Source: Deltaproteobacteria bacterium RIFCSPHIGHO2_02_FULL_40_28 (GTDB lineage: Bacteria; UBA10199; 2-12-FULL-40-28). Taken from it: a stretch of DNA of 49,689 nt. The stretch covers positions 1-49,689 of the forward strand of contig MGRJ01000026.1 in assembly GCA_001798135.1 (NCBI GenBank), in the 5' to 3' direction. The translations under genes were made by a program, and so were the position numbers. Shown here one piece after another: positions 2,667 to 46,597 of the stretch; position 1 is the stretch's first letter; every line of letters starts with the position of its first letter. The notes beneath the pieces were generated by a model. It was given only the letters and a program-made list of their open reading frames with translations, had not been told where the DNA came from and did no database searches.

Positions 2667-2680
2667 ATGATAAAAATCAT
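2667..2680. promoter_or_regulatory. FNR-type palindrome overlapping the copper ATPase start codon
   Basis: ATGATAAAAATCAT is a perfect TGAT-N4-ATCA palindrome and is identical, including the spacer, to the site at 24131-24144. It covers the ATG of the copper ATPase, where the coding triplets happen to spell M-I-K-I. No other in-frame start codon exists between the upstream stop and the YHS domain. A protein bound here would block transcription or translation initiation rather than activate from -41. Chance identity remains possible. Confidence 0.45.
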
Positions 2681-4823
2681 AGAAAAAGATTTTTCCCAAA
2701 CAGCCAAGGATCCCATTTGTGGTATGGTTGTTCAAAAAAACTCTGCATTAAAAACAGAGCAGGCAGGGAGAATTTATTATTTTTGCAGTCAAAACTGCCA
2801 AAAAACTTTTGAATCTCCAGAGCAAGAACTAAAATCCATGAAAAAAAGGGTGGCTCTTGTTCTTACAGGAGTTTTAGCCCTAGCTCTTTTGCGGGCCAGT
2901 GCCTTTTTATTTTTAGCTACAGGGGCCATGGTGATGAGCTGGGCTCCCATTCCACAACTTCCTTGGTTTACCTGGGGCATTTGGCTTTTTATTTTGGTAA
3001 CTCCCGTGCAATTTATTGGAGGTTGGGGTTTTTATCAGGGAGCATGGAATGCTCTTAAAAAAAAATCTGTCAACATGGATTTACTTATCGCCTTGGGAAC
3101 CAGTGTTGCCTACATTTATAGCGTGATTGTTATTTTTGTTCCTGATATTTTACCTGTTAAAGTTGAAGAACGGGATGTTTATTTTGAAGTATCTGCCGTT
3201 ATTATTGCCTTTGTTCTTTTGGGTAAGTACATGGAAGAACTGATCAAGAAAAAATCTTCAGCCGCTATCAGGCGTTTGATGGATTTAAAACCTGCCATGG
3301 CTCGTGTGATCAGAAATGGCATTGAAATGGAAATTTCTGCCGAACAAGTTATGGTTGGTGAAATTTTAATCATTAAGCCTGGAGAAAAAATTCCAACAGA
3401 TGGAATTGTTATCGAAGGATCATCCCTGGTGAATGAGTCGATGTTAACAGGTGAATCCATGCCTGTTGAAAAAAAGAAAGACGCCACAGTGATTGGAGCT
3501 ACAATCAATCAAAATGGTTTGCTTAAAATGAAAGCAACTCGTGTGGGATCAGAAACCACTTTGGCTCAAATTATTAAGCTTGTAGAACAGGCACAAACAA
3601 CCAGCGCTCCCATTCAACGTTTGGCAGATCAAGTTACTGGTTATTTTGTTCCCATTGTTGTCATCACAGCTTTTTTATCATTTGGGTTATGGTGGGTTTT
3701 TGGAAATTTTCCCCAAGGACTTCTCTCTTTTATTGCGGTTCTTATCATCGCTTGCCCTTGTGCTCTTGGGATTGCAACCCCAGCTGCATTGATGGTGGGT
3801 GTTGGTAAGGGTGCAGAAGTGGGAATTTTAATTCGTGGTGGAGATGTTTTAGAACGAGCTCAGAAATTAACTACTATTGTTTTTGATAAAACGGGCACAC
3901 TCACAGTAGGAAAACCAACTCTTACCGACCTTATTTCTTTTTCTTCTTTTACCGATACACACATTCTTGAATTAGCTGCTGTTTTGGAGTCTGGCTCTGA
4001 ACACCCCATAGCATTGGCTATTGTAAAAGAAGCTTTGAGTAGGGGCGTATTGCAATCTGCCCCTACTTTAGAAAAATTTGAAGCTGTTCCAGGGCATGGA
4101 ATTCGAGGTGATGTTGGAGGAAAAAAAGTCCTCATGGGCAATCGACGTTTGTTTCAGCAGGAAGGAATTTTATCAACACAAGCCGAAGAAGTGATGCAAA
4201 AACTTGAATCGATGGGTAAAACAGTTCTCTTAGTGGGAGTACATGGAGCTTTAGTAGGGATTATTGCAGTAGCCGACACTTTAAAACCAGAAGCCAAGGA
4301 AGCAATTGCCCTTCTTAAGAAAGAAAAAGTTGAAGTGATTCTTTTAAGCGGGGACAACAAACGGTGTGCCAAACATGTTGGCCATGAGCTTGGAATCGAA
4401 AAAATCATGGCCGAAGTTTTGCCAGGGGATAAGGCCAGCATCATTCAAAATTTGCAAAATGCAGGTCAGGTTGTAGCCATGGTAGGAGATGGTGTTAATG
4501 ATGCCCCAGCCTTGGCCACAGCAGATATTGGAATTGCTATTGGTTCTGGTTCTGATGTGGCTAAAGAGACGGGGGGAATTATTCTCATTAAGAGTGATGT
4601 AAGAGACGTGGTAACGAGTATTCTTTTATCTCGAGCAACCATGAAAAAAATCAGGCAAAATCTTTTCTGGGCTTTTATTTATAATTCTGTTGGGGTGCCC
4701 GTAGCCGCTGTAGGTTTTTTAAATCCCATGATTGCTGCAGCTGCCATGGCGTTGAGTTCACTTTCAGTGATTATCAATTCGGCTTTACTCAAACGTTTTA
4801 AGGTGAAAACAATCATGGTATGA
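2667..4823 (+). CDS. copA: Copper-translocating P1B-type ATPase with N-terminal YHS domain
   Basis: 718 residues. A YHS metal-binding domain at about 15-52 (DPICGM with Cys18, then Cys40 and Cys44) replaces the usual HMA domains. It is followed by paired membrane helices, actuator motif TGES (261-264), the CPC transport motif (363-365), DKTGT with phosphorylated Asp407, SEHP (444-447) and GDGVND (607-612). This is the Cu+ P1B-1 pattern. It either exports copper or loads it onto exported enzymes. In this window NirK needs copper, so a delivery role in the CtpA/FixI sense is plausible but inferred. The start ATG has a poor ribosome site and lies within an FNR-type palindrome. A kinase gene follows after 21 bases. 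Confidence 0.92.
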   Translation: MIKIIEKDFSQTAKDPICGMVVQKNSALKTEQAGRIYYFCSQNCQKTFESPEQELKSMKKRVALVLTGVLALALLRASAFLFLATGAMVMSWAPIPQLPWFTWGIWLFILVTPVQFIGGWGFYQGAWNALKKKSVNMDLLIALGTSVAYIYSVIVIFVPDILPVKVEERDVYFEVSAVIIAFVLLGKYMEELIKKKSSAAIRRLMDLKPAMARVIRNGIEMEISAEQVMVGEILIIKPGEKIPTDGIVIEGSSLVNESMLTGESMPVEKKKDATVIGATINQNGLLKMKATRVGSETTLAQIIKLVEQAQTTSAPIQRLADQVTGYFVPIVVITAFLSFGLWWVFGNFPQGLLSFIAVLIIACPCALGIATPAALMVGVGKGAEVGILIRGGDVLERAQKLTTIVFDKTGTLTVGKPTLTDLISFSSFTDTHILELAAVLESGSEHPIALAIVKEALSRGVLQSAPTLEKFEAVPGHGIRGDVGGKKVLMGNRRLFQQEGILSTQAEEVMQKLESMGKTVLLVGVHGALVGIIAVADTLKPEAKEAIALLKKEKVEVILLSGDNKRCAKHVGHELGIEKIMAEVLPGDKASIIQNLQNAGQVVAMVGDGVNDAPALATADIGIAIGSGSDVAKETGGIILIKSDVRDVVTSILLSRATMKKIRQNLFWAFIYNSVGVPVAAVGFLNPMIAAAAMALSSLSVIINSALLKRFKVKTIMV

Positions 4824-20557: not shown

Positions 20558-21349
20558 TTATGATTTTTTTTCATCTTGAGCACATCGAAAACCCAAGCTG
20601 GATGTTGTGTAATGGGCTTTCAATGAAGTTCTAAAGGCTATACGCATAAAGCTGGCATAATCATCTTTTTCTGTAGCAACCAGTGCCCCCGCTCCACAAA
20701 ACCTGTTTTTATCGGGGCTTGTGGCATTTTCGCGATTATCACTGGAAACAAGGCTGCTATTGAAATCGAGAACCCATTCCCATACAAGGCCATGTAAATA
20801 ATAAACACCCCAGTAATTGGGTGGGCTTTGCCCCACCTTGGGAAAAACAGAAGGTGTTGGCTTTGTATACCAATCGAGGATGCGATTTCTCCACTCTAAA
20901 TCTTTACGGGCATCTGGTTTTTTATCGCTAGCACCAGCAACATATTCCCATTCATTTTCTGTGGGCAGTCTTTTACCTTCTGATTCGCAATAAGCTTTGG
21001 CTGCAAACCAGCTTACTTGGGTTACTGGTTGTTCCCCATTTATTTTATTGCCCAGACTTATTGGTGTGACCCAGTGAGACAGATATTGTTTATCAGCAAA
21101 AATTCTTTTGATGTGATCACGTCTCCATTGGGGATTTTTTTTTACAAACTGGAGAAACTGGGCTTCCGTAACAGGAAATTTATTCATCCAAAAAGTATGA
21201 ACAGGAATTTCTCGTTCTTTGGGGGAAGGAGGGTAGAAGGGTTTTAAAATCCCTCCTACCACATAAGCCATCCCTTTTTCAGCCGATTGGGCAGCCAGGA
21301 TCAACCCAAACTGCCCAATACAAATAGCGGCTAGAAGGAGAAGACGCAT
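20558..21349 (-). CDS. nirV: Formylglycine-generating-enzyme-fold protein, NirV-like
   Basis: 263 residues with a signal peptide (ends near AAQSAE). The FGE-sulfatase/SUMF1 fold is shown by FWMNKFPVTEAQFLQF, QPVTQVSWFAAKAYCESEGK, RLPTENEWEYVAGAS and the closing SLGFRCAQ. Genes of this fold directly after nirK are called nirV in denitrifiers; their role is unclear. The two active-site cysteines of true FGE are not obvious, so it is probably not a formylglycine synthase. It overlaps nirK by one base (TAATG), so translation is coupled. Confidence 0.83.
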   Translation of the reverse strand: MRLLLLAAICIGQFGLILAAQSAEKGMAYVVGGILKPFYPPSPKEREIPVHTFWMNKFPVTEAQFLQFVKKNPQWRRDHIKRIFADKQYLSHWVTPISLGNKINGEQPVTQVSWFAAKAYCESEGKRLPTENEWEYVAGASDKKPDARKDLEWRNRILDWYTKPTPSVFPKVGQSPPNYWGVYYLHGLVWEWVLDFNSSLVSSDNRENATSPDKNRFCGAGALVATEKDDYASFMRIAFRTSLKAHYTTSSLGFRCAQDEKKS

Positions 21350-22773
21350 TATTTTGCAGCTCCCGGGGGACGGAGTGTTGCTTCACGTACCACTTTTACT
21401 TCTTCTGTATCTACTACTCCCCCTTTGTTTTCCCATGAATTCAAAACAAAGGTAAGAATATGTGCCACTTCATCATCATTTAACTGACTCATGGGAGGCA
21501 TGGTTGAATTATAATCCCGACCGTTTACTTTAATGGGGCCACTTAAACCGTTAAGAATGGCAGCAATGAGTTTTTGTTTATCCCAACCATTAACAATATC
21601 GGAGTTGGCCAATGGAGGAAAAACTCCTGGAATGCCAATGCCATTATTTTGATGGCAAGTAGAGCAAGTTCCCATAAACAGATTTTTTCCAGCTTCAATT
21701 TGCATTTCTTTGGTGAGAGTTCCTTTTTTTGAAGCTGCTGCAGCTTGTGCAATAGCTTGGGTTTGTTCTGCTTTGTCTGCTAAATAAACGGAATCAACTT
21801 CTTTTCCAGAATACATTGCCTTGTTTTCATCACCCTCAACTTTCATCATGCCTAGGGCTCCTTTGTTGAAGGCGCGAAAAATTGAGTGATCAACAAGAAT
21901 ATAGGTTCCAGGAATTTCAGCTTTATATTCTACAATGGCTGAGCCCCCTGCGGGGACAAGAGTTGTTTGTACATTTTCTTGATAACGGGTGCCGCCTTCG
22001 GTGAAAACTTTATCAAAAACTTCACCAATGACATGGAAAGAACTTATAAGATTTGGACCCCCATTTCCTATAAAGAGACGCACCGTTTCTCCAACCTTGG
22101 CTTTAATGGCTTTATCTCCAACCAAAGCTCCTTCAGAACCATTAAAAAGAACATAAGTGGCATTTTCTTCGATGGCTTTTTGCATATCGAAAGGTTGAAG
22201 TCCTTTTTCGCGGTACTTGCCCACGGTGTAAAAATCGCCCTGGACAATGTAGTATTCTTTATCAACGGGTGGAAGACCTTCAGGGGGTTCTACAAGAATT
22301 AGTCCATACATTCCATTAGCTACATGCATGCCTACAGGTGCTGTTGCGCAATGGTAAATATATAATCCCTTGTTTAAGGCTTTAAATGTAAATTGAGACT
22401 CGTGCCCTGGAGCTGTGAAAGAACTTGTAGCCCCACCACCTGGTCCTGTTACTGCATGGAGATCAATATTGTGTGGCATTTTATTATCGGGATGGTTTTG
22501 GAGATGAAATTCAACAGTATCACCTTGCCTGACACGAATAAATTTTCCAGGAACATGACCACCAAAGGTCCAAAAAGTATAATCCACACCATCGGCAATG
22601 GGCCTGGTTACTTCTTTTACTTCAAGATGTGCGATGATTTTTGCTGGATAATTTCTTTTGATAGGTGGAGGTACATTGGGGGCATCTGTTAGAATGGCCT
22701 CAATAGGATCTCCGGAGTGACAATTCATCATGGTGAGTGATAATCCAAGCATGATCATGAGAAACTGATTCAT
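21349..22773 (-). CDS. nirK: Copper nitrite reductase fused to a C-terminal cytochrome c domain
   Basis: 474 residues. Two cupredoxin domains (about 40-320) carry type 1 copper ligands His101, Cys142, His150 and Met155, type 2 ligands His106, His141 and His296, and catalytic Asp104 and His247. A linker leads to a cytochrome c domain with CSTCH (370-374) and Met425 in STMPPM as the sixth haem ligand. The enzyme reduces nitrite to nitric oxide in the periplasm, and the tethered haem brings in electrons. An N-terminal signal is present, ending near a Cys in a poor lipobox. It is the second gene of the operon, 12 bases after the hemerythrin gene. Confidence 0.96.
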
Positions 22774-23402: not shown

Positions 23403-24101
23403 TTATGGGTTAAGGGTTAACCCTACAACTTGACGAAGAGTAGACATGTTAGGAATTTCGATGTATTTATCCTGAGTATCAATGAGTTTTTGTTTTGACC
23501 AAGTACTTAAAATGCGGATCACTGTTTCGACAGTTGATCCTACCCTATCAGCAATATCCTGACGAGTGAGGGGAATAGTAATGCGGCTTGTGGAACCATA
23601 GGTGTTTTGAATACGCTCCAAAAGATCTAACAAAAAAATGGCAATACGTTTTTCGGTAGAATCAAAAGACATAACACGATCACTATGGGCTTGTCTGATG
23701 CGTTCTCCAAGTTGTGCAATTAAAATTTGTCCTACTTTGGGATGAAGAAGAAAAAAATCCTGAAATGTTTTTGCCTCAATTTTCATGACTGTACTTTGTT
23801 CTAAGGCAATGGCATTTACTGGATAAAATCCTCCTTGCATGACTACTGCTGCTCCAAACATTTCTCCACGCATGAGGAGATGAACAATCCTTTCTTTTCC
23901 ATCAGGATGAGAGCGAACCAGTTTTGCGCTTCCTGAGAGAATAATATACACATGGGTTGCCTGGTACCCCGCAGAAAAGGCATGTTCACCACGTTTGAGA
24001 TGACAGATGGTACATTTTTCAGATAAGACGACCATTTCGCTTTGGTTGAGTTGCGAGAAAATAGAAATATTTTTCATGTAAGAGGAAATTTTTTTATCCA
24101 T
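23403..24101 (-). CDS. CRP/FNR-family transcriptional regulator
   Basis: 232 residues: a cyclic-nucleotide-binding-fold sensor domain (about 15-135), a dimerisation helix and a CRP winged helix with TRQDIADRVGSTVETVIRIL. Only two cysteines (30 and 33) occur near the N-terminus, too few for an FNR-type iron-sulfur cluster, so it is more like DNR/NNR/Crp types that sense NO through haem or another ligand. It lies between the nirK operon and the nitrate-respiration genes and is divergent from the latter, so it is their best candidate regulator. The FNR-type palindrome at 24131 is 30-43 bases before its own ATG, which suits autoregulation. Confidence 0.92.
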   Translation of the reverse strand: MDKKISSYMKNISIFSQLNQSEMVVLSEKCTICHLKRGEHAFSAGYQATHVYIILSGSAKLVRSHPDGKERIVHLLMRGEMFGAAVVMQGGFYPVNAIALEQSTVMKIEAKTFQDFFLLHPKVGQILIAQLGERIRQAHSDRVMSFDSTEKRIAIFLLDLLERIQNTYGSTSRITIPLTRQDIADRVGSTVETVIRILSTWSKQKLIDTQDKYIEIPNMSTLRQVVGLTLNP

Positions 24102-24130: not shown

Positions 24131-24144
24131 ATGATAAAAATCAT
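24131..24144. promoter_or_regulatory. FNR-type operator in the regulator/porin divergent promoter
   Basis: ATGAT-AAAA-ATCAT, a perfect palindrome identical to 2667-2680. For the porin, placing it at -41 predicts a start near 24179, with CATAAT (24164-24169) as the -10 box and AAAGGAGG before the ATG at 24219. The same site could repress or activate the regulator gene on the other strand. Confidence 0.75.
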
Positions 24145-24218: not shown

Positions 24219-25412
24219 ATGCATCATATCTTAACTCAAAAGGTCATACCAGTTGTTTTGTTTTTTGCGGTTGTTTCAATGCTTCTGTCGTTTTCTGTAA
24301 CAGCAAGCGCAAAATCATCAACAGTCTTGACTCAACAAGAAGTCGAAAAAATTGTCGATAATAAAATAGCAGCACAACAAAAAGAGGACAGCTGGATTAA
24401 AAAATACAATGTTAAACCTATACTCAAAACATTTGTTCAGTACAGCCTTGATTTAGACACCAGTGCCCATCAGAGACGAACAACCACACAGTGGGATAAC
24501 GCTTTTGATCTAACACGGTTCTATTTTGGTTTTGATGCTGATCTCACAAAACATATCATGGTGGAAGTGAAGGCGGATATTAACGCCAAGGCAGCTGCGG
24601 GCGCCCAAGACTCCGATTTTGATATTTTTCTTAAAACAGGTTTTCTTGAATTTGGGAATTTCGAATCTGCACCCGGACTCAAATTTGTTGTGGGTCAAGC
24701 GGATCTTCCATGGATTGGCTATGTGGAAGGGGTATGGGGTTATCGAATGCAAGGGCAGATTTTAACCGACTATGAGCGCTATCTTGCTTCCACAGACGTG
24801 GGGGTTGGCGTCAAATACGAATTCCCAGAAAAATGGGGCGATCTGCACTTTTCGTTTGTTAACGGAACAGGATTTAATACCGGTCCAGAAAACGATAATT
24901 ATAAGGATTTTCACCTACGTGCAACCGTTAAACCCCTTGCTAACAAGAACTTCTTTGTTTCCGCCCTTGGGGTTGTTGGTTTTACAGGAAGTAGTTCCAA
25001 CGATCATGAACGATTTGCCGGATTGATTGGATATAAAGACAAAGAACACGGAACCATCGCTGGTGAGGTTTTATATGCTATTGATCCCGCAGCTAACCTT
25101 GCCGCTCGTCATCCAAGCTTAGCTGCTTTAACCGGTAACGCGAAAGGGCTTGGTTTTTCTGGGTTTGGCGAACTCAAATTCTTTTGGTGGGAAGATCCCT
25201 GGGATCGTTTTTCTATCATCGGACGGGTTGATTTTCTTGATCCCGACGGAAGCACAGACAATAATTACCATTATCACGGTATTAGTGGCCTGGCTTACAC
25301 ACTCAACGACCATTTTAAATTTCTCATCGACCATGACTGGAGCAGTTATCAGGCGGGTGCCGGTCAACGGGGAAATAATACCTTATTCTTTCAAATGGAA
25401 GCAAAGTTATGA
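24219..25412 (+). CDS. Outer-membrane porin, phosphate-selective porin (OprO/P)-like
   Basis: 397 residues with a long signal peptide (cleavage near TASAKS), a short coiled segment (LTQQEVEKIVDNKIAAQQ) and a beta-barrel rich in alternating aromatic strands, ending in FFQMEAKL. The strand containing GQADLPWIGYVEG and the DLTRFYFGFDADL segment resemble OprO/P-type barrels. The substrate is unknown; nitrate, or the oxyanion used by the following molybdoenzyme, would fit the context. Its last codons overlap the next gene by four bases (ATGA), so it is the first gene of the B-C-A operon. Confidence 0.72.
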   Translation: MHHILTQKVIPVVLFFAVVSMLLSFSVTASAKSSTVLTQQEVEKIVDNKIAAQQKEDSWIKKYNVKPILKTFVQYSLDLDTSAHQRRTTTQWDNAFDLTRFYFGFDADLTKHIMVEVKADINAKAAAGAQDSDFDIFLKTGFLEFGNFESAPGLKFVVGQADLPWIGYVEGVWGYRMQGQILTDYERYLASTDVGVGVKYEFPEKWGDLHFSFVNGTGFNTGPENDNYKDFHLRATVKPLANKNFFVSALGVVGFTGSSSNDHERFAGLIGYKDKEHGTIAGEVLYAIDPAANLAARHPSLAALTGNAKGLGFSGFGELKFFWWEDPWDRFSIIGRVDFLDPDGSTDNNYHYHGISGLAYTLNDHFKFLIDHDWSSYQAGAGQRGNNTLFFQMEAKL

Positions 25413-26278
25413 CGCAACAGAAGAAAAAGGATCATCAAGAAACAGAAATATCGGATAGCGTTGCTATTAAAACGCGCCGAGATTTTTTGAAAAATCTCAA
25501 AGATGTGGGCGCGTGTGCTCTTGTTACCGCCATTGCCAGTGGGGGTATCATGAGTTCCTTTTTATCCATGACAGATGCCGTTGCTTCTGCCCCAGGTGGA
25601 AGCCGTGCTCTCACAAAGAGAAAATACCGATACGGAATGGTTATCGATACGCGCCGATGTGTTGGTTGTAAGGCATGTATGGTTGCATGCAAAGTAGAAA
25701 ACAAAACGCCACCCGGAGTTTCTTACACCATTGTATCTAGTCATGCTCTAGATCGTCCTGATGAGAAACCTGTTTTTACAACCAAACCCTGTTTTCATTG
25801 CGAACACCCTCCGTGTGTTGATGTTTGTCCAGTGAGTGCCACCTTTAAGCGTGATCAAGATGGTATTGTGGTGGTTGACTACGACCGCTGCATTGGCTGT
25901 CGCTATTGTATTACCGCATGTCCATACGGAGCCCGGTATTTTGACTTTGGCGAAAACTATACCATGACTGAGTCGGGTCCTTTCAAAAAAATTCCTTCAC
26001 CAGAATACAATCAATTTCGCAAGCGGGAGGAGGGATCTTCACCAATTGGCAATGTAAGAAAATGTACTTTTTGTCTCCATTTTCAAGATGCCGAAGGTCG
26101 CTATGACAAGGAGAGCGGTCGTTGGCCGTCCTGCGCCAAAACTTGCACGGGGCACGCAATTTTCTTTGGTGACTTCAACGATCCAGAAAACGAGGTTGCT
26201 CGTCTTATCAGAGAAAGACAGCCGATTCGTCTGAAAGAAGAGTTGGGAACACAGCCCAATGTTTATTACTTATTGTAG
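25409..26278 (+). CDS. Tat-exported 4x[4Fe-4S] electron-transfer subunit (PsrB/TtrB/DmsB type)
   Basis: 289 residues. The twin-arginine motif TRRDFLKNL and a hydrophobic stretch indicate Tat export. Four cysteine groups follow: CVGCKACMVACK, CFHCEHPPCVDVCP, CIGCRYCITACP and CTFC with CAKTC. This is the four-cluster ferredoxin subunit of complex iron-sulfur molybdoenzymes, which passes electrons from the membrane quinol subunit to the catalytic subunit. The gene order B-C-A is like ttrBCA and srdBCA. The ten-base gap to the NrfD-type gene supports one operon. Confidence 0.92.
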   Translation: MTQQKKKDHQETEISDSVAIKTRRDFLKNLKDVGACALVTAIASGGIMSSFLSMTDAVASAPGGSRALTKRKYRYGMVIDTRRCVGCKACMVACKVENKTPPGVSYTIVSSHALDRPDEKPVFTTKPCFHCEHPPCVDVCPVSATFKRDQDGIVVVDYDRCIGCRYCITACPYGARYFDFGENYTMTESGPFKKIPSPEYNQFRKREEGSSPIGNVRKCTFCLHFQDAEGRYDKESGRWPSCAKTCTGHAIFFGDFNDPENEVARLIRERQPIRLKEELGTQPNVYYLL

Positions 26279-26287
26279 GAGTTTAAA

Positions 26288-27553
26288 ATGAAGCAAGTTA
26301 CTTGTTGTGAAAATCAAACAGCGTGTGGATTAAAAAAGATTTTTTGGTATCTTGGAGGATTTCTTTTTCTGATCGGTTTATATGGTTGGATTGACCGTTT
26401 GTGGTATGGCCATCTGCACGCAAATTATGGAAATGTTGTAACTTGGGGACTTTGGGTGTCTCTTTATATTTATTTTATCGGTTTATCTGCGGGCTCTTTT
26501 TTAATTTCATCGCTGGTCTACGTATTTAATTTTAAGCAGTTTGAGCGAATTGGCTGGGTGGCCCTTTTAACCGCTATTATCACTCTGCTGATGGCTTTGT
26601 TTTCCATTTGGGTTGATCTTGGCCACATGGAGCGTGCGTGGAAGGTGATGATCTTTGCCAATTTTAAGTCCCCTATGGCCTGGATGATCTGGCTCTATTC
26701 AGCCTACTTTCTTTTGTTACTGGTGGAAACATGGTTTCTTTTACGAGGAGATTTGGTGCGTCAAGCCAGCCTCTCTGGGTTACCTGGAAGGGTGTTTCAT
26801 TTTCTCTCTTTTGGATCGCCAGCTCCCTCCGAAATAACACAGAAACGTGACCTCAAAATTGTGCGTATTTTAGCTACAATTGGTGTTCCTGTGGCTGTGA
26901 TGTTTCATGGAGGGGTTGGCGCTCTCTTTGGCGTGGTTGCAGCCAGGCCCCACTGGCATAGCGGACTTTTTCCCATTTTGTTTCTTCTTTCCGCCCTTGT
27001 GAGTGGTGGTGCTCTCCTTATAGTGGTTACCTCCATTTTTCAAAAAGGGTTTGAAGCAAATCGTGATACCATATTTGCTCTTGGCAAACTTGTTCTTGGA
27101 TTGCTGCTTCTTGATCTTTTATTTCAATTCTCGGAAATACTTGTTGCCTTTTATGGCGGTATTCCAAGTCATGTGGAGGGACTTAAGCTTGCTCTTTTTG
27201 GTCCCTATGCGTGGGTTTTTTGGGTTTGGCAAATCGGTATTGGTACTGTTATTCCTGTTATTTTGCTTACCACTAAAACACGGCATCAGGTTGGTTGGGT
27301 TGCATTGGCGGGCCTTCTTTTGGTGATTGGTTTTATTGGCATGCGGCTTAACATTGTGATTCCAGGTTTAGCAGTAGAAGAAATCAAGGGATTAACAACA
27401 GCCTATGTATCAACACGTGTGGCAACCAATTATTTTCCTAGTGTGAGCGAATGGCTGCTATCGGCTGGTATTGTAGGTTTTGGGTTGCTCCTTTTTGGTT
27501 TGGGTGAACTTTTTCTCTCAAAAGAAAATAAGCTGACGGAAGATGAGGTGTAG
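26288..27553 (+). CDS. NrfD/PsrC-type quinol-interacting membrane subunit
   Basis: 421 residues with about nine to ten membrane helices. The first helix region GLYGWIDRLWYG and YIYFIGLSAGSFLISS fit the NrfD/PsrC family, which has no haem and oxidises quinol at the membrane. It anchors the iron-sulfur and molybdenum subunits on the periplasmic face. It has a three-base gap to the catalytic subunit gene. A cysteine-rich N-terminus (TCCENQTACG) precedes the first helix and is not a standard feature. Confidence 0.9.
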   Translation: MKQVTCCENQTACGLKKIFWYLGGFLFLIGLYGWIDRLWYGHLHANYGNVVTWGLWVSLYIYFIGLSAGSFLISSLVYVFNFKQFERIGWVALLTAIITLLMALFSIWVDLGHMERAWKVMIFANFKSPMAWMIWLYSAYFLLLLVETWFLLRGDLVRQASLSGLPGRVFHFLSFGSPAPSEITQKRDLKIVRILATIGVPVAVMFHGGVGALFGVVAARPHWHSGLFPILFLLSALVSGGALLIVVTSIFQKGFEANRDTIFALGKLVLGLLLLDLLFQFSEILVAFYGGIPSHVEGLKLALFGPYAWVFWVWQIGIGTVIPVILLTTKTRHQVGWVALAGLLLVIGFIGMRLNIVIPGLAVEEIKGLTTAYVSTRVATNYFPSVSEWLLSAGIVGFGLLLFGLGELFLSKENKLTEDEV

Positions 27554-27556
27554 ATT

Positions 27557-30070
27557 ATGTACGTGTTTGATAAGAAAATGGGCCGAAGAAAATTTATCAA
27601 AGTAATGGGCGCCTCTGTGGCTGGAGCCGTTGCAAGTAGCGCTTTAACGGGATGTGTTAGTTTAGGATCCAAGGAACATTCAATTCCGACCAATGAGTTG
27701 GGGATAAAAGAATGGGGACGTGAGGCAGGCGAATGGATTCCTTCCTGTTGTAATATGTGTGGCGGACAATCGGGGATTTTGTGCCATGTGGTAGATGGTG
27801 TGGTGGCCAAAATTGAGCCTAATCACTGGAACCCAAACAACTATTCCAATATTTCTTCTGATTTTTTTGATGGCTATACGGAAGAGTATGGTTGTAAGGA
27901 CGGGGGAGCCCTCTGTCCCAAGGGAAATGCCGGTATCGCCCAGCTTTATGATTCTGATCGAATTAAAACACCACTTAAACGAACCAATCCCGATCGTTCA
28001 CCAGGTGCTGATCCAAAGTGGCAGGAGATTAGCTGGGATACGGCACTGAATGAAATTGCCGATAAATTAAAAACACTTTACGATGCGGGTGAGGCCCACA
28101 AACTTTTATGGATAAGTGAAGATCATAGTTTTACCCATATTCAGGGTGATTTTTGTGAACTCTTTGGCACTCCTAATTATTCCATGCACTCAAATTTGTG
28201 TGATGTTGCCAGGAAGGCCTCATTTAAGACGGTATTGGGGCATGATCGGCCATTGCTGGATGCTCTTCATTCAAAATATATCCTCCTTTTTGGATGGAAC
28301 CCCACCTCGGCTATCAAGTGGGTTCATCTGCCACGTATTATCACACAGGGGATCGAGCGGGGAGCTAAGCTTGTGGTGGTTGATCCCTATCTCTCAGATA
28401 CGGCTGCCAAGGCACAAGAATGGATTTCGTTGCGTCCTGGAACTGATGGGGCGTTGGCATTAGCAATGGGTCATGTGATTGTCAAAGAAAAATTATATGA
28501 TGAGGAGTTTGTTAACACTTGGGTTTCTGGTTTTGAGGAATACAGTCAGTACGTTGCTGATAAAACCCCTCAATGGGCCGAACAAATTACAACTGTGCCA
28601 GCAAAGACGATTGAGCGTATCGCGCGAGAACTGGCAACCACCAAGCCAGCTTTGGTGGATGTTTGGAGCGGCCCTGGCCAGCATACCAACGGGGTGCAGG
28701 GAGGAAGAGCAATTGTCGCCTTGAATGCCCTTATTGGCACTATTGACCGCCCCGGTGGCATGGTAATTCCCAACAAAAGTGGCAATAAACATGGGCATGT
28801 AGATGCCAATGAACAAGCAGCTCTCACAGGGGAGAATCCACGATTTGATGAGTTAAAAAAATATCCTTTGGGGCATAAATCGGGCGTTTATACACGAACG
28901 TTTAGCAATTTGGAGCAGGGGGCTGGTCCATATTCTCCAAAAATGGCCGTCATTGTGTTTCAAAATCCAGCCATGTCGGTTCCTGGAAATTTGGTTCCAA
29001 AGGCACTGGCCAAACTTGAGACAGTTGTTGTTATTGATACGATGCTGAGTGAAACAGCCATGCTGGCCGACTATGTTTTGCCAGGTACTACTTATCTTGA
29101 ACGATACGATCTCAATACTCACTGGGTAACCTGGCCGGTTTTAGCTCTGAGACAACCGGTGATTAAACCTCTGTTTGGTCAACCAACAGAATATGAAGTG
29201 GTGGCAGCATTGGGAAGGCGTTTGAAGTTAACAACAAAAGACGGTGTTGAATTTTTTTATCGCGGGCCCTTGTCAGGAGAATCAATTGAGCACCTCACAC
29301 AATGGTATGAGGATTATCTTTCCAATGAACTGGTACATGGTGCTCCCAAAATCACATTGAAGGAACTGAAAACCCTCCCAGGAGCCGTATGGGTAGATCG
29401 CAAAGGGACGGAGTATGAAAAATATGCTAAAGAGGTTTCTGCACCAAAGTTAGTTGGTGCTTTTTATGATGGTTCTTCGATGCAAGATGGCACAGGGGTT
29501 TATGATAAACCAAAAGATCAAAAAGGGAAACGGCTTGGAACAGTGTTTGGGGGCAAGGTATTGAAGAGTTTTGATACCCCTAGCGGAAAGGTAGAACTTT
29601 TTGCACCATCACTGGCAAAAAAAAATGACGCTGATGGGCAACCGGTTAACCCGCTCCCTGTTTATGAACCGCGTCAGTGGCAGCCAAATAAGGAATTTCC
29701 CCTCTATTTAATCAACTGGAAAGAGGCTAGCCACACTCATACACGGAGCCAAAATAATCCGCTACTTCTAGAACTCAAATCGGATAATCGGCTGGTTATT
29801 CATCCCGATACTGCACAATCACTTGGTATTGGGCCGGAAGATGACGTCTGGGTAGAATCATCACAGGGCAAGGTTAAAGCTCGTGTACAAATTACACGGC
29901 GGATTCATCCAGAAGTGGTTGGAGCTCAGCATGGATTTGGCCACACCGCTTTAGGCAAAAATGCCAAGGGTCGTGGATCAGCTTTTGGCATATTAAACCG
30001 TTGTCTTTCTGATCCTCTCTCGGGTCAGGCGGTTCATAAGGAAATTTGCGTGCGGGTAGTTCCAGTATAG
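27557..30070 (+). CDS. Exported molybdopterin oxidoreductase of the complex iron-sulfur (Psr/Phs/Ttr/Srd-like) group
   Basis: 837 residues. A Tat motif GRRKFIKVMG is followed by ALTGC (Cys33), so it may be a Tat-exported lipoprotein. The N-terminal cluster region reads CCNMCGGQSGILC and, later, GALCPKG; the position of the third ligand Cys is Ser72. Cys215 in HSNLCDVA is the probable molybdenum ligand, as in Psr/Ttr-type enzymes. The C-terminal molybdopterin-binding domain starts near NPLLLELKSDNR. Its substrate is probably an oxyanion or sulfur compound (polysulfide, thiosulfate, tetrathionate, selenate) and cannot be set from sequence alone. It is shorter than TtrA (about 1000). It pairs with the B and C subunits upstream. 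Confidence 0.85.
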   Translation: MYVFDKKMGRRKFIKVMGASVAGAVASSALTGCVSLGSKEHSIPTNELGIKEWGREAGEWIPSCCNMCGGQSGILCHVVDGVVAKIEPNHWNPNNYSNISSDFFDGYTEEYGCKDGGALCPKGNAGIAQLYDSDRIKTPLKRTNPDRSPGADPKWQEISWDTALNEIADKLKTLYDAGEAHKLLWISEDHSFTHIQGDFCELFGTPNYSMHSNLCDVARKASFKTVLGHDRPLLDALHSKYILLFGWNPTSAIKWVHLPRIITQGIERGAKLVVVDPYLSDTAAKAQEWISLRPGTDGALALAMGHVIVKEKLYDEEFVNTWVSGFEEYSQYVADKTPQWAEQITTVPAKTIERIARELATTKPALVDVWSGPGQHTNGVQGGRAIVALNALIGTIDRPGGMVIPNKSGNKHGHVDANEQAALTGENPRFDELKKYPLGHKSGVYTRTFSNLEQGAGPYSPKMAVIVFQNPAMSVPGNLVPKALAKLETVVVIDTMLSETAMLADYVLPGTTYLERYDLNTHWVTWPVLALRQPVIKPLFGQPTEYEVVAALGRRLKLTTKDGVEFFYRGPLSGESIEHLTQWYEDYLSNELVHGAPKITLKELKTLPGAVWVDRKGTEYEKYAKEVSAPKLVGAFYDGSSMQDGTGVYDKPKDQKGKRLGTVFGGKVLKSFDTPSGKVELFAPSLAKKNDADGQPVNPLPVYEPRQWQPNKEFPLYLINWKEASHTHTRSQNNPLLLELKSDNRLVIHPDTAQSLGIGPEDDVWVESSQGKVKARVQITRRIHPEVVGAQHGFGHTALGKNAKGRGSAFGILNRCLSDPLSGQAVHKEICVRVVPV

Positions 30071-30106: not shown

Positions 30107-30120
30107 ATGATTTGTATCAT
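30107..30120. promoter_or_regulatory. FNR-type operator of the nar operon
   Basis: ATGAT-TTGT-ATCAT has perfect half-sites. Placing it at -41 predicts a start near 30155, with CTAAAT (30143-30148) near -10 and GAGG before the ATG at 30171. It is the only recognisable promoter element in the 100 bases between the molybdoenzyme gene and the cytochrome gene. Confidence 0.75.
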
Positions 30121-45841: not shown

Positions 45842-46597
45842 ATGGAACTTCACTTTTATTTTTTGATTCCACTTTTTTTTCTCACTGCTGCTCTTTATTC
45901 TTCAGCGGGCTTGGGTGGGGGTTCTGCTTATTTAGCTCTTTTGGTTCTTTTTGGATTTTCGCATACGAGTATCCCCTTATTTTCGCTTGGTTGTAATATC
46001 CTGGTTGTTAGCGTGGGGCTCTGGCATTTTTGCAGGGCCGGACATCTTCGTTTAAAGAATGTACTTCCTTTTTTGATCACATCCATCCCTTTTGCCTTTC
46101 TTGGAGGAAGTTTAAACCTTGGCAAAAAAGTATTTTCTTTCTTGCTGGCATTTTCTTTAGCTGCTGCCGCCTTGCGTCTTTTATTCAAAGATCAAGAAAG
46201 AAAACTACAAGTTGTTTCGTTGAAAAAATCTTTTATGTTTGGATTGCCAGTAGGAGCTGTGATTGGATTTTTGTCGGGCTTGGTTGGTATTGGTGGGGGT
46301 ATTTTTTTGAGTCCACTATTGCTTTTGTTGCGTTGGGCCGATGCCAAACAGGCTGCTGCTGCGGCCAGCCTGTTTATCTTGGTTAATTCACTTTCAGGTT
46401 TGATGGGACAATTTTCCAAGGGATTGCCCTTTGAACATGCTTATTTATTTTTACCGCTTTTAATTGCTGTTTTTTTAGGTTCTCAGCTTGGCGCACGTTT
46501 TGGGGCCCTTCGGTTTTCGGCATTGGTTTTACAAAGGGTGACAGTTGGGATTCTTTTTGTTGCCAGTGTGAGAATTTTAATGGGGTTGTGGGAGTGA
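45842..46597 (+). CDS. TSUP (TauE/SafE) family membrane permease
   Basis: 251 residues with about eight helices and the paired family motifs GLGGGSAYLALLVL and GLVGIGGGIFLSPLLLL. TSUP proteins move sulfite, thiosulfate, sulfoacetate or similar anions. It begins one base after moaCB, so it belongs to the MoCo operon. Molybdopterin needs sulfur, and molybdate is also an anion, but neither substrate can be assigned from sequence. No modABC molybdate transporter is in the window. Confidence 0.85.
   Translation: MELHFYFLIPLFFLTAALYSSAGLGGGSAYLALLVLFGFSHTSIPLFSLGCNILVVSVGLWHFCRAGHLRLKNVLPFLITSIPFAFLGGSLNLGKKVFSFLLAFSLAAAALRLLFKDQERKLQVVSLKKSFMFGLPVGAVIGFLSGLVGIGGGIFLSPLLLLLRWADAKQAAAAASLFILVNSLSGLMGQFSKGLPFEHAYLFLPLLIAVFLGSQLGARFGALRFSALVLQRVTVGILFVASVRILMGLWE

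Follow-up and report, generated by a model that had tools for sequence, protein, structure and literature searches.

The locus at positions 24219-30070 of contig MGRJ01000026.1, from Deltaproteobacteria bacterium RIFCSPHIGHO2_02_FULL_40_28, raises the question of which substrate is served by a molybdoenzyme whose iron-sulfur motif departs from the canonical form. We analysed it within a stretch of 49,689 nt (hereafter the window), in which a porin gene is followed, all on the + strand, by genes for the ferredoxin (B), NrfD-type (C) and catalytic (A) subunits of a complex iron-sulfur molybdoenzyme (CISM). Judged from sequence, subunit A belongs to a clade without any characterised enzyme, an uncharacterised but conserved variant of the periplasmic quinol-linked oxyanion oxidoreductases. 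In alignments of this clade and its relatives, the third cysteine of the motif for cluster FS0 is replaced family-wide, with at least a few switches to or from Cys. Arsenate is the leading candidate substrate, a hint rather than a finding, with no substrate proven. The operon and the diagnostic residues of subunit A are as follows.

24219..25412, + strand: outer-membrane porin, a distant Porin_O_P relative with iterative homology to porins of the clade
25409..26278, + strand: subunit B, a Tat-exported ferredoxin with 17 Cys and motifs for four [4Fe-4S] clusters
26288..27553, + strand: subunit C, an NrfD/PsrC-type membrane quinol module (PF03916, E 2e-47)
27557..30070, + strand: subunit A, the MopB catalytic subunit, 837 aa with a Tat signal (open reading frame, Pfam, AlphaFold2 model with pLDDT 90, fold match to ArrA 6cz7)
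27584..27589, + strand: twin arginines R10-R11 of A
27653..27655, + strand: Cys33 of the lipobox LTG-C in A, shared by 10/27 sequences of the clade alignment
27746..27784, + strand: FS0 motif, residues 64-76 of A, CCNMCGGQSGILC, with ligand positions 1-3 taken by C65, C68 and Ser72, and C64 and C76 as extra cysteines
27914..27916, + strand: Cys120 of A, fourth FS0 ligand position, 27/27 in the clade alignment
28199..28201, + strand: Cys215 of A, probable Mo ligand in the motif HSNLC-x4-K, 27/27 and aligned with HSSIC-x4-K of ArrA

The first-pass annotation of this DNA had described a Tat-exported subunit A of 837 residues, encoded with its ferredoxin and NrfD subunits in B-C-A order after a porin, and the open reading frames, Pfam matches and Tat motifs (RRKFIK in A, RRDFLK in B) all agree with that description. 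Subunit A matches Molybdopterin, Molydop_binding and Molybdop_Fe4S4 (PF00384, PF01568 and PF04879) above cut-off; the Fer4 families and NrfD also exceed theirs, which places the set in the CISM/MopB superfamily. Subunit B carries four 4-Cys cluster motifs, and its best NCBIfam model, DsrO, scores below cut-off. The porin had been called OprO/P-like; it has no direct Pfam match, and what stands is a distant tie, since an iterative search connects it to porins of the clade, which include a clear Porin_O_P. Cys33 is a possible lipid anchor of subunit A, and the complex as a whole is probably lipid-anchored. The complete B-C-A set, with its NrfD subunit and a Tat signal on each of A and B, supports a reductase complex; our confidence in this architecture is high, far higher than in any substrate, and reduction is most likely the direction in which it would work.

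To which family, then, does the catalytic subunit belong? Scanning one genome per species, we recovered a discrete set of homologues at 55-70% identity, followed by a gap down to about 31% over the full length. The hosts of this set include Nitrospirota, Spirochaetota, Sumerlaeota, Bdellovibrionota, Planctomycetota, Kapabacteria, Verrucomicrobiota, Acidimicrobiia, Chloroflexota, Omnitrophota, Latescibacterota, Armatimonadota, Elusimicrobiota, Myxococcales and the cultured Stygiobacter electus. Whole-genome searches added members in Melioribacteraceae, Planctomycetota, Omnitrophota and Desulfobacterota. The clade comprises mostly metagenome-assembled genomes (MAGs) from groundwater, in about 15 phyla. 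A sister group at 48-52% identity occurs in Nitrospirota and Planctomycetota. No homologue of clade-level identity was present in the 59 relatives of the host that were searched, same-order genomes included; this argues against vertical inheritance in the host lineage, and the operon was therefore likely acquired horizontally. In the plasmid collection, matches spanning most of the length reached no more than about 30% identity, with PhsA as the best annotated family.

In two trees, obtained by quick searches with SH-aLRT as the only branch support, the window clade is monophyletic (support 100) on a long stem, apart from PhsA/Psr, ArrA, TtrA and DmsA. A common clade with Phs/Psr was rejected in the approximately unbiased (AU) test (p-AU 0.019); trees constrained to group the clade with Arr (p-AU 0.082) or with TtrA (not the best tree, p-AU 0.286) were not rejected. 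The curated PhsA model is the best single NCBIfam model for A, at 386 of the 694 bits required, and the DmsA/YnfE model TIGR02166 (256 of 778 bits) and the TtrA model (98 of 1750 bits) also miss their thresholds, as does ArrA; membership in Phs, Arr, Ttr or Dms is thus rejected by curated model. The earlier view of a B-C-A CISM of unassigned substrate, outside any characterised clade, is borne out by these scores and by the tree. The B-C-A order and the Tat-bearing B subunit recall the Ttr cluster, while the catalytic subunit is, by sequence, a member of none of the named families. An unnamed MAG-derived MopB lineage, sister to TtrA/SrdA and with a Cys ligand, is mentioned in PMC10100899, whose text neither names nor describes it; it may be the window clade.

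The FS0 motif of this clade is altered. Subunit A has cysteines at 33, 64, 65, 68, 76, 113, 120, 200, 215, 816 and 831. Alignment with other MopB proteins assigns residues 65, 68 and 120 to ligand positions 1, 2 and 4 and Ser72 to position 3, giving C65-x2-C68-x3-S72-x47-C120, which does not match the canonical CISM motif C-x2-C-x3-C-x27-C (Arr, Psr, Ttr, Unk). The clade alignment comprises 27 sequences, the window's included, of which 26 have an intact FS0 motif. All of these 26 have C64, C65, C68, C120 and C215, whereas residue 72 varies (Ser in 14, Thr in 9, Cys in 3). Because Ser and Thr recur at this position, Ser72 is not a sequencing error. The trait noted in the window protein therefore exists but is clade-wide rather than peculiar to it; C76, which had been listed as a further extra cysteine, is unconserved and incidental, whereas the proposed Mo ligand Cys215 holds up, being invariant in 27/27 sequences and aligned with the ArrA motif. 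The 27th sequence, an Acidimicrobiia homologue (L014:9920-12513, contig of 1.6 Mb), is frameshifted in the FS0 region, through either sequencing error or pseudogene formation.

Residue 72 varies among Ser, Thr and Cys beside invariant C65, C68, C120 and C215, the pattern expected if this position still serves as a ligand or cluster corner. Most simply, we infer that three Cys and one oxygen ligand bind the cluster, or that it is of the [3Fe-4S] type. Another reading keeps FS0 as a four-Cys cluster in which C64 stands in for the lost cysteine; C64 is invariant in the window clade, and none of the characterised families compared has it. The sister group, however, mostly combines Ser or Thr at 72 with Asn or Thr at 64 (the Nitrospirota members L182-L185 and L187-L190), so C64 is not a general replacement ligand, and five members carry Cys at both positions, which speaks against a trade-off between them. 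We consider a C64-ligated cluster unlikely. Over the whole tree, residue 72 changes six times between Cys and an oxygen donor. An independent lineage of uncharacterised MopB proteins (L141:5902-8541, on a plasmid of Azoarcus sp. KH32C, and L217:993-3497) has Asp at the third position (C-x2-C-x3-D); the Azoarcus copy lies in a B-C-A-TorD operon divergent from PhnD, kinase and sigma-54 regulator genes.

Gene neighbourhoods and fold bear most directly on the substrate. We clustered the genes flanking clade and sister relatives; the controls were 42 further MopB loci taken from the same scan. Porins of three groups adjoin 19 clade or sister loci (0/42 controls) and TorD adjoins 22 relatives (0 controls); a histidine kinase is found beside 16 relatives against 3 controls, a sigma-54 regulator beside 14 against 2, a PhnD-type sensor of two groups beside 13 against 1, and ACR3 beside 6 against 0, and molybdenum cofactor (Moco) genes recur. 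The trio of PhnD-type sensor, kinase and regulator is the known ArrTSR/ArxXSR design (PMC5492636, PMC6683785); because TtrS has a related sensor domain, such trios indicate only an oxyanion. More specifically, ACR3, ArsA, ArsC or ArsD flank 8/52 relatives and 0/42 other MopB loci (Fisher p 0.007), and the neighbouring ACR3, ArsA and ArsD pass curated cut-offs. In one Melioribacteraceae genome, arsR-arsC-acr3 directly precedes the array PhnD-kinase-regulator-porin-B-C-A.

The B-C-A order is kept in the window clade. The sister group has no NrfD, and its loci run from a small multihaem cytochrome c of c7-like type through A and B to TorD; the Nitrospirota loci L182-L190 and L200, MOLY-like in layout, often have ModE, FmdE and MoeA-like genes nearby. 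In a Spirochaete MAG (L008:6810-18730), a clade-type B-C-A operon stands immediately ahead of a B-C-A operon of the TtrA/SrdA family and a TorD gene.

The AlphaFold2 model of A finds its best fold match in ArrA 6cz7 (TM-score 0.78-0.80), followed by PsrA. This match and the resemblance of HSNLC-x4-K to HSSIC-x4-K count in favour of the reading proposed below, as does the enrichment of porins, sensor trios and arsenic genes over controls. Arr shares with the window system the MopB fold, the Cys ligand in H-S-x-x-C-x4-K and a four-cluster B subunit, and with the clade the sensor trio at many loci and the arsenic genes beside some; it differs from window A in its identity of about 25% and in that A has its own long-stem clade, a replaced third FS0 Cys and the B-C-A order. 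We therefore favour, tentatively and at somewhat less than an even chance, a quinol-linked, periplasmic oxyanion reductase complex with arsenate as its leading substrate; that arsenate, from which antimonate is not separable, is the family's most likely substrate is a suggestion of slightly lower confidence still. Several observations weigh against it. The curated ArrA model scores 234 of 1600 bits; 44/52 relatives have no arsenic gene nearby; and the arsenic-neighbour test was framed after the first examples had been seen, on the same data, with the 27 clade loci fetched first giving 3/27 by themselves (p = 0.056). ACR3 was not found in the window genome, rated 100% complete, nor were ArsC or ArsD in the roughly half of it that was searched, and the setting of the window operon itself is denitrification. 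Tetrathionate systems, too, use this sensor-trio design and the B-C-A order. We also considered Melioribacter roseus 'TtrA' (MROS_1076; PMC5492636) as a clade orthologue and rejected it, because a Melioribacteraceae genome that fits M. roseus by the position of its Psr gene has no clade member; the arsenate induction of MROS_1076 hence does not transfer directly.

In the complex that we propose, the porin would let the soluble oxyanion cross the outer membrane, and the NrfD-type subunit C would oxidise menaquinol or ubiquinol. Electrons would then pass through the four [4Fe-4S] clusters of B and the unusual FS0 of A to molybdenum, and the oxyanion would be reduced at a Mo-bis-pyranopterin held by Cys215. 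FS0 would be retained by Cys 65, 68 and 120 with an oxygen donor at 72 (Ser here), or as a [3Fe-4S] cluster open at that corner. With arsenate as substrate, the enzyme would resemble respiratory arsenate reductase while lying outside Arr. Genes, motifs, the clade with its pattern of conservation and the neighbourhoods are observed; the type of cluster, the way electrons run and the substrate are inferred.

The first-pass annotation had listed tetrathionate, selenate, thiosulfate or an undescribed acceptor. That list narrows slightly, in that grouping with Phs/Psr is rejected and arsenic genes are the sole recurrent substrate-specific neighbours. The strongest competitor is a sulfur-oxyanion reductase (tetrathionate, thiosulfate or polysulfide) on a divergent branch near Ttr. 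The B-C-A order with Tat on B is the hallmark of the Ttr cluster (PMC2500031), and the Ttr/SrdA/alternative arsenate reductase family also shares the NrfD anchor; grouping with Ttr was not rejected (p-AU 0.286), PhsA gave the best single model, and the Moco clusters of the window and four relatives include a gene for a TauE/SafE-type exporter. The low TtrA and PhsA scores and the rejected Phs/Psr clade count against it, and, TauE aside, no sulfur-metabolism family recurs among the flanking genes. Subunit A is also shorter than Ttr catalytic subunits (837 aa against about 1020-1060 aa) and differs from them in its altered FS0, and Psr/Phs enzymes share the CISM architecture but have a canonical FS0. 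We regard this competitor as unlikely. Less probable again, and quite unlikely in our view, is an enzyme reducing selenate, selenite or chromate, antimonate alone or some further minor oxyanion. The operon pair of the Spirochaete MAG points that way, given that the TtrA/SrdA family includes the selenate reductase SrdA (PMC10100899), as do chromate-transporter-like genes beside three relatives. That pair is nonetheless a single case, no selenium-specific neighbour recurs, and SrdA proteins are of 934-1222 aa and belong to the Ttr family (PMC6662431, PMC10100899).

The surroundings of the operon bring in the direction of electron flow. It is flanked by a divergent regulator on one side and by a cytochrome c-narGHJI-narK-Moco stretch on the other, with these elements around it.

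23403..24101, - strand: CRP/FNR-family regulator, divergent from the porin operon (Pfam cNMP_binding and HTH_Crp_2)
24131..24144, no strand: FNR-type palindrome ATGATAAAAATCAT, located in the intergenic region of regulator and porin operon
30107..30120, no strand: FNR-type palindrome ATGATTTGTATCAT, preceding cytochrome c/narGHJI

Both palindromes are exact ATGAT-N4-ATCAT sites, starting at 24131 upstream of the porin and at 30107 upstream of cytochrome c/nar, and they confirm the co-location with nitrate genes under a common operator type that had been noted before. Allowing up to one mismatch gives eight sites, against 2.7 expected, and of 15 exact sites in the whole genome, 3 lie inside the window. 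The third, at 2667, overlaps the start codon of a copper P-type ATPase gene (2667-4823); it is probably due to chance, or perhaps marks a leaderless promoter or repressor site. At 21349-22773, the window encodes a NirK-like copper-oxidase protein with a cytochrome c fused at its C terminus, adjoined by SCO1-like, porin and NnrS-like genes and forming with nar a compact denitrification island. The last gene of the Moco cluster (45842-46597) encodes a TauE/SafE (TSUP) transporter, and such a gene likewise occurs in the Moco clusters adjoining the clade operons of L022, L023, L026 and L195.

A high potential, of the kind seen in AioA, is conceivable for an FS0 that is O-ligated or [3Fe-4S], which would suit the reverse direction. 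In this oxidative reading, an Arx-like or Soe-like dehydrogenase would pass electrons from an inorganic donor through the quinone pool to the neighbouring nitrate reductase; the operon adjoins narGHJI with a common FNR-type operator, and ArxA couples arsenite oxidation to nitrate (PMC6683785). Many hosts, however, are Omnitrophota and Elusimicrobia MAGs, presumably anaerobic, in which nar genes were not seen next to the operon, and in the sister group NrfD is replaced by the c7-like multihaem cytochrome, a usual donor to reductases; we consider oxidation improbable. That window A is MolyA of the sulfur-disproportionation MOLY cluster, or a direct derivative, is highly improbable and was not established: compared by gene layout, the anchorless A-B-TorD arrangement of the Nitrospirota sister group matches MolyABC (PMC12998232), but the window operon has NrfD and no adjoining TorD, and Desulfobacterota A/B/TorD clusters (L203, L204, L206, L213) have the canonical C-x2-C-x3-C and fall on the Phs/Psr side of the tree.

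A broader proposal, which we put forward as speculative and no likelier than a sulfur-oxyanion enzyme, is that the clade would form a third, horizontally spread family of respiratory arsenate/antimonate reductases, distinct from Arr and from the alternative, Ttr-like enzymes, with a three-Cys FS0 completed by a Ser/Thr ligand (or a [3Fe-4S] cluster), present in groundwater bacteria of more than 12 phyla and missed by arrA surveys. If the arsenic link is true, aquifer surveys that count only arrA miss a reductase found in many lineages from groundwater, a matter relevant to the release of arsenic into wells. Regardless of substrate, the Ser/Thr clade and the unrelated Asp lineage offer a natural series for the tuning of FS0 by ligand type, and this series bears on whether electron transfer to molybdenum needs all four cysteines.

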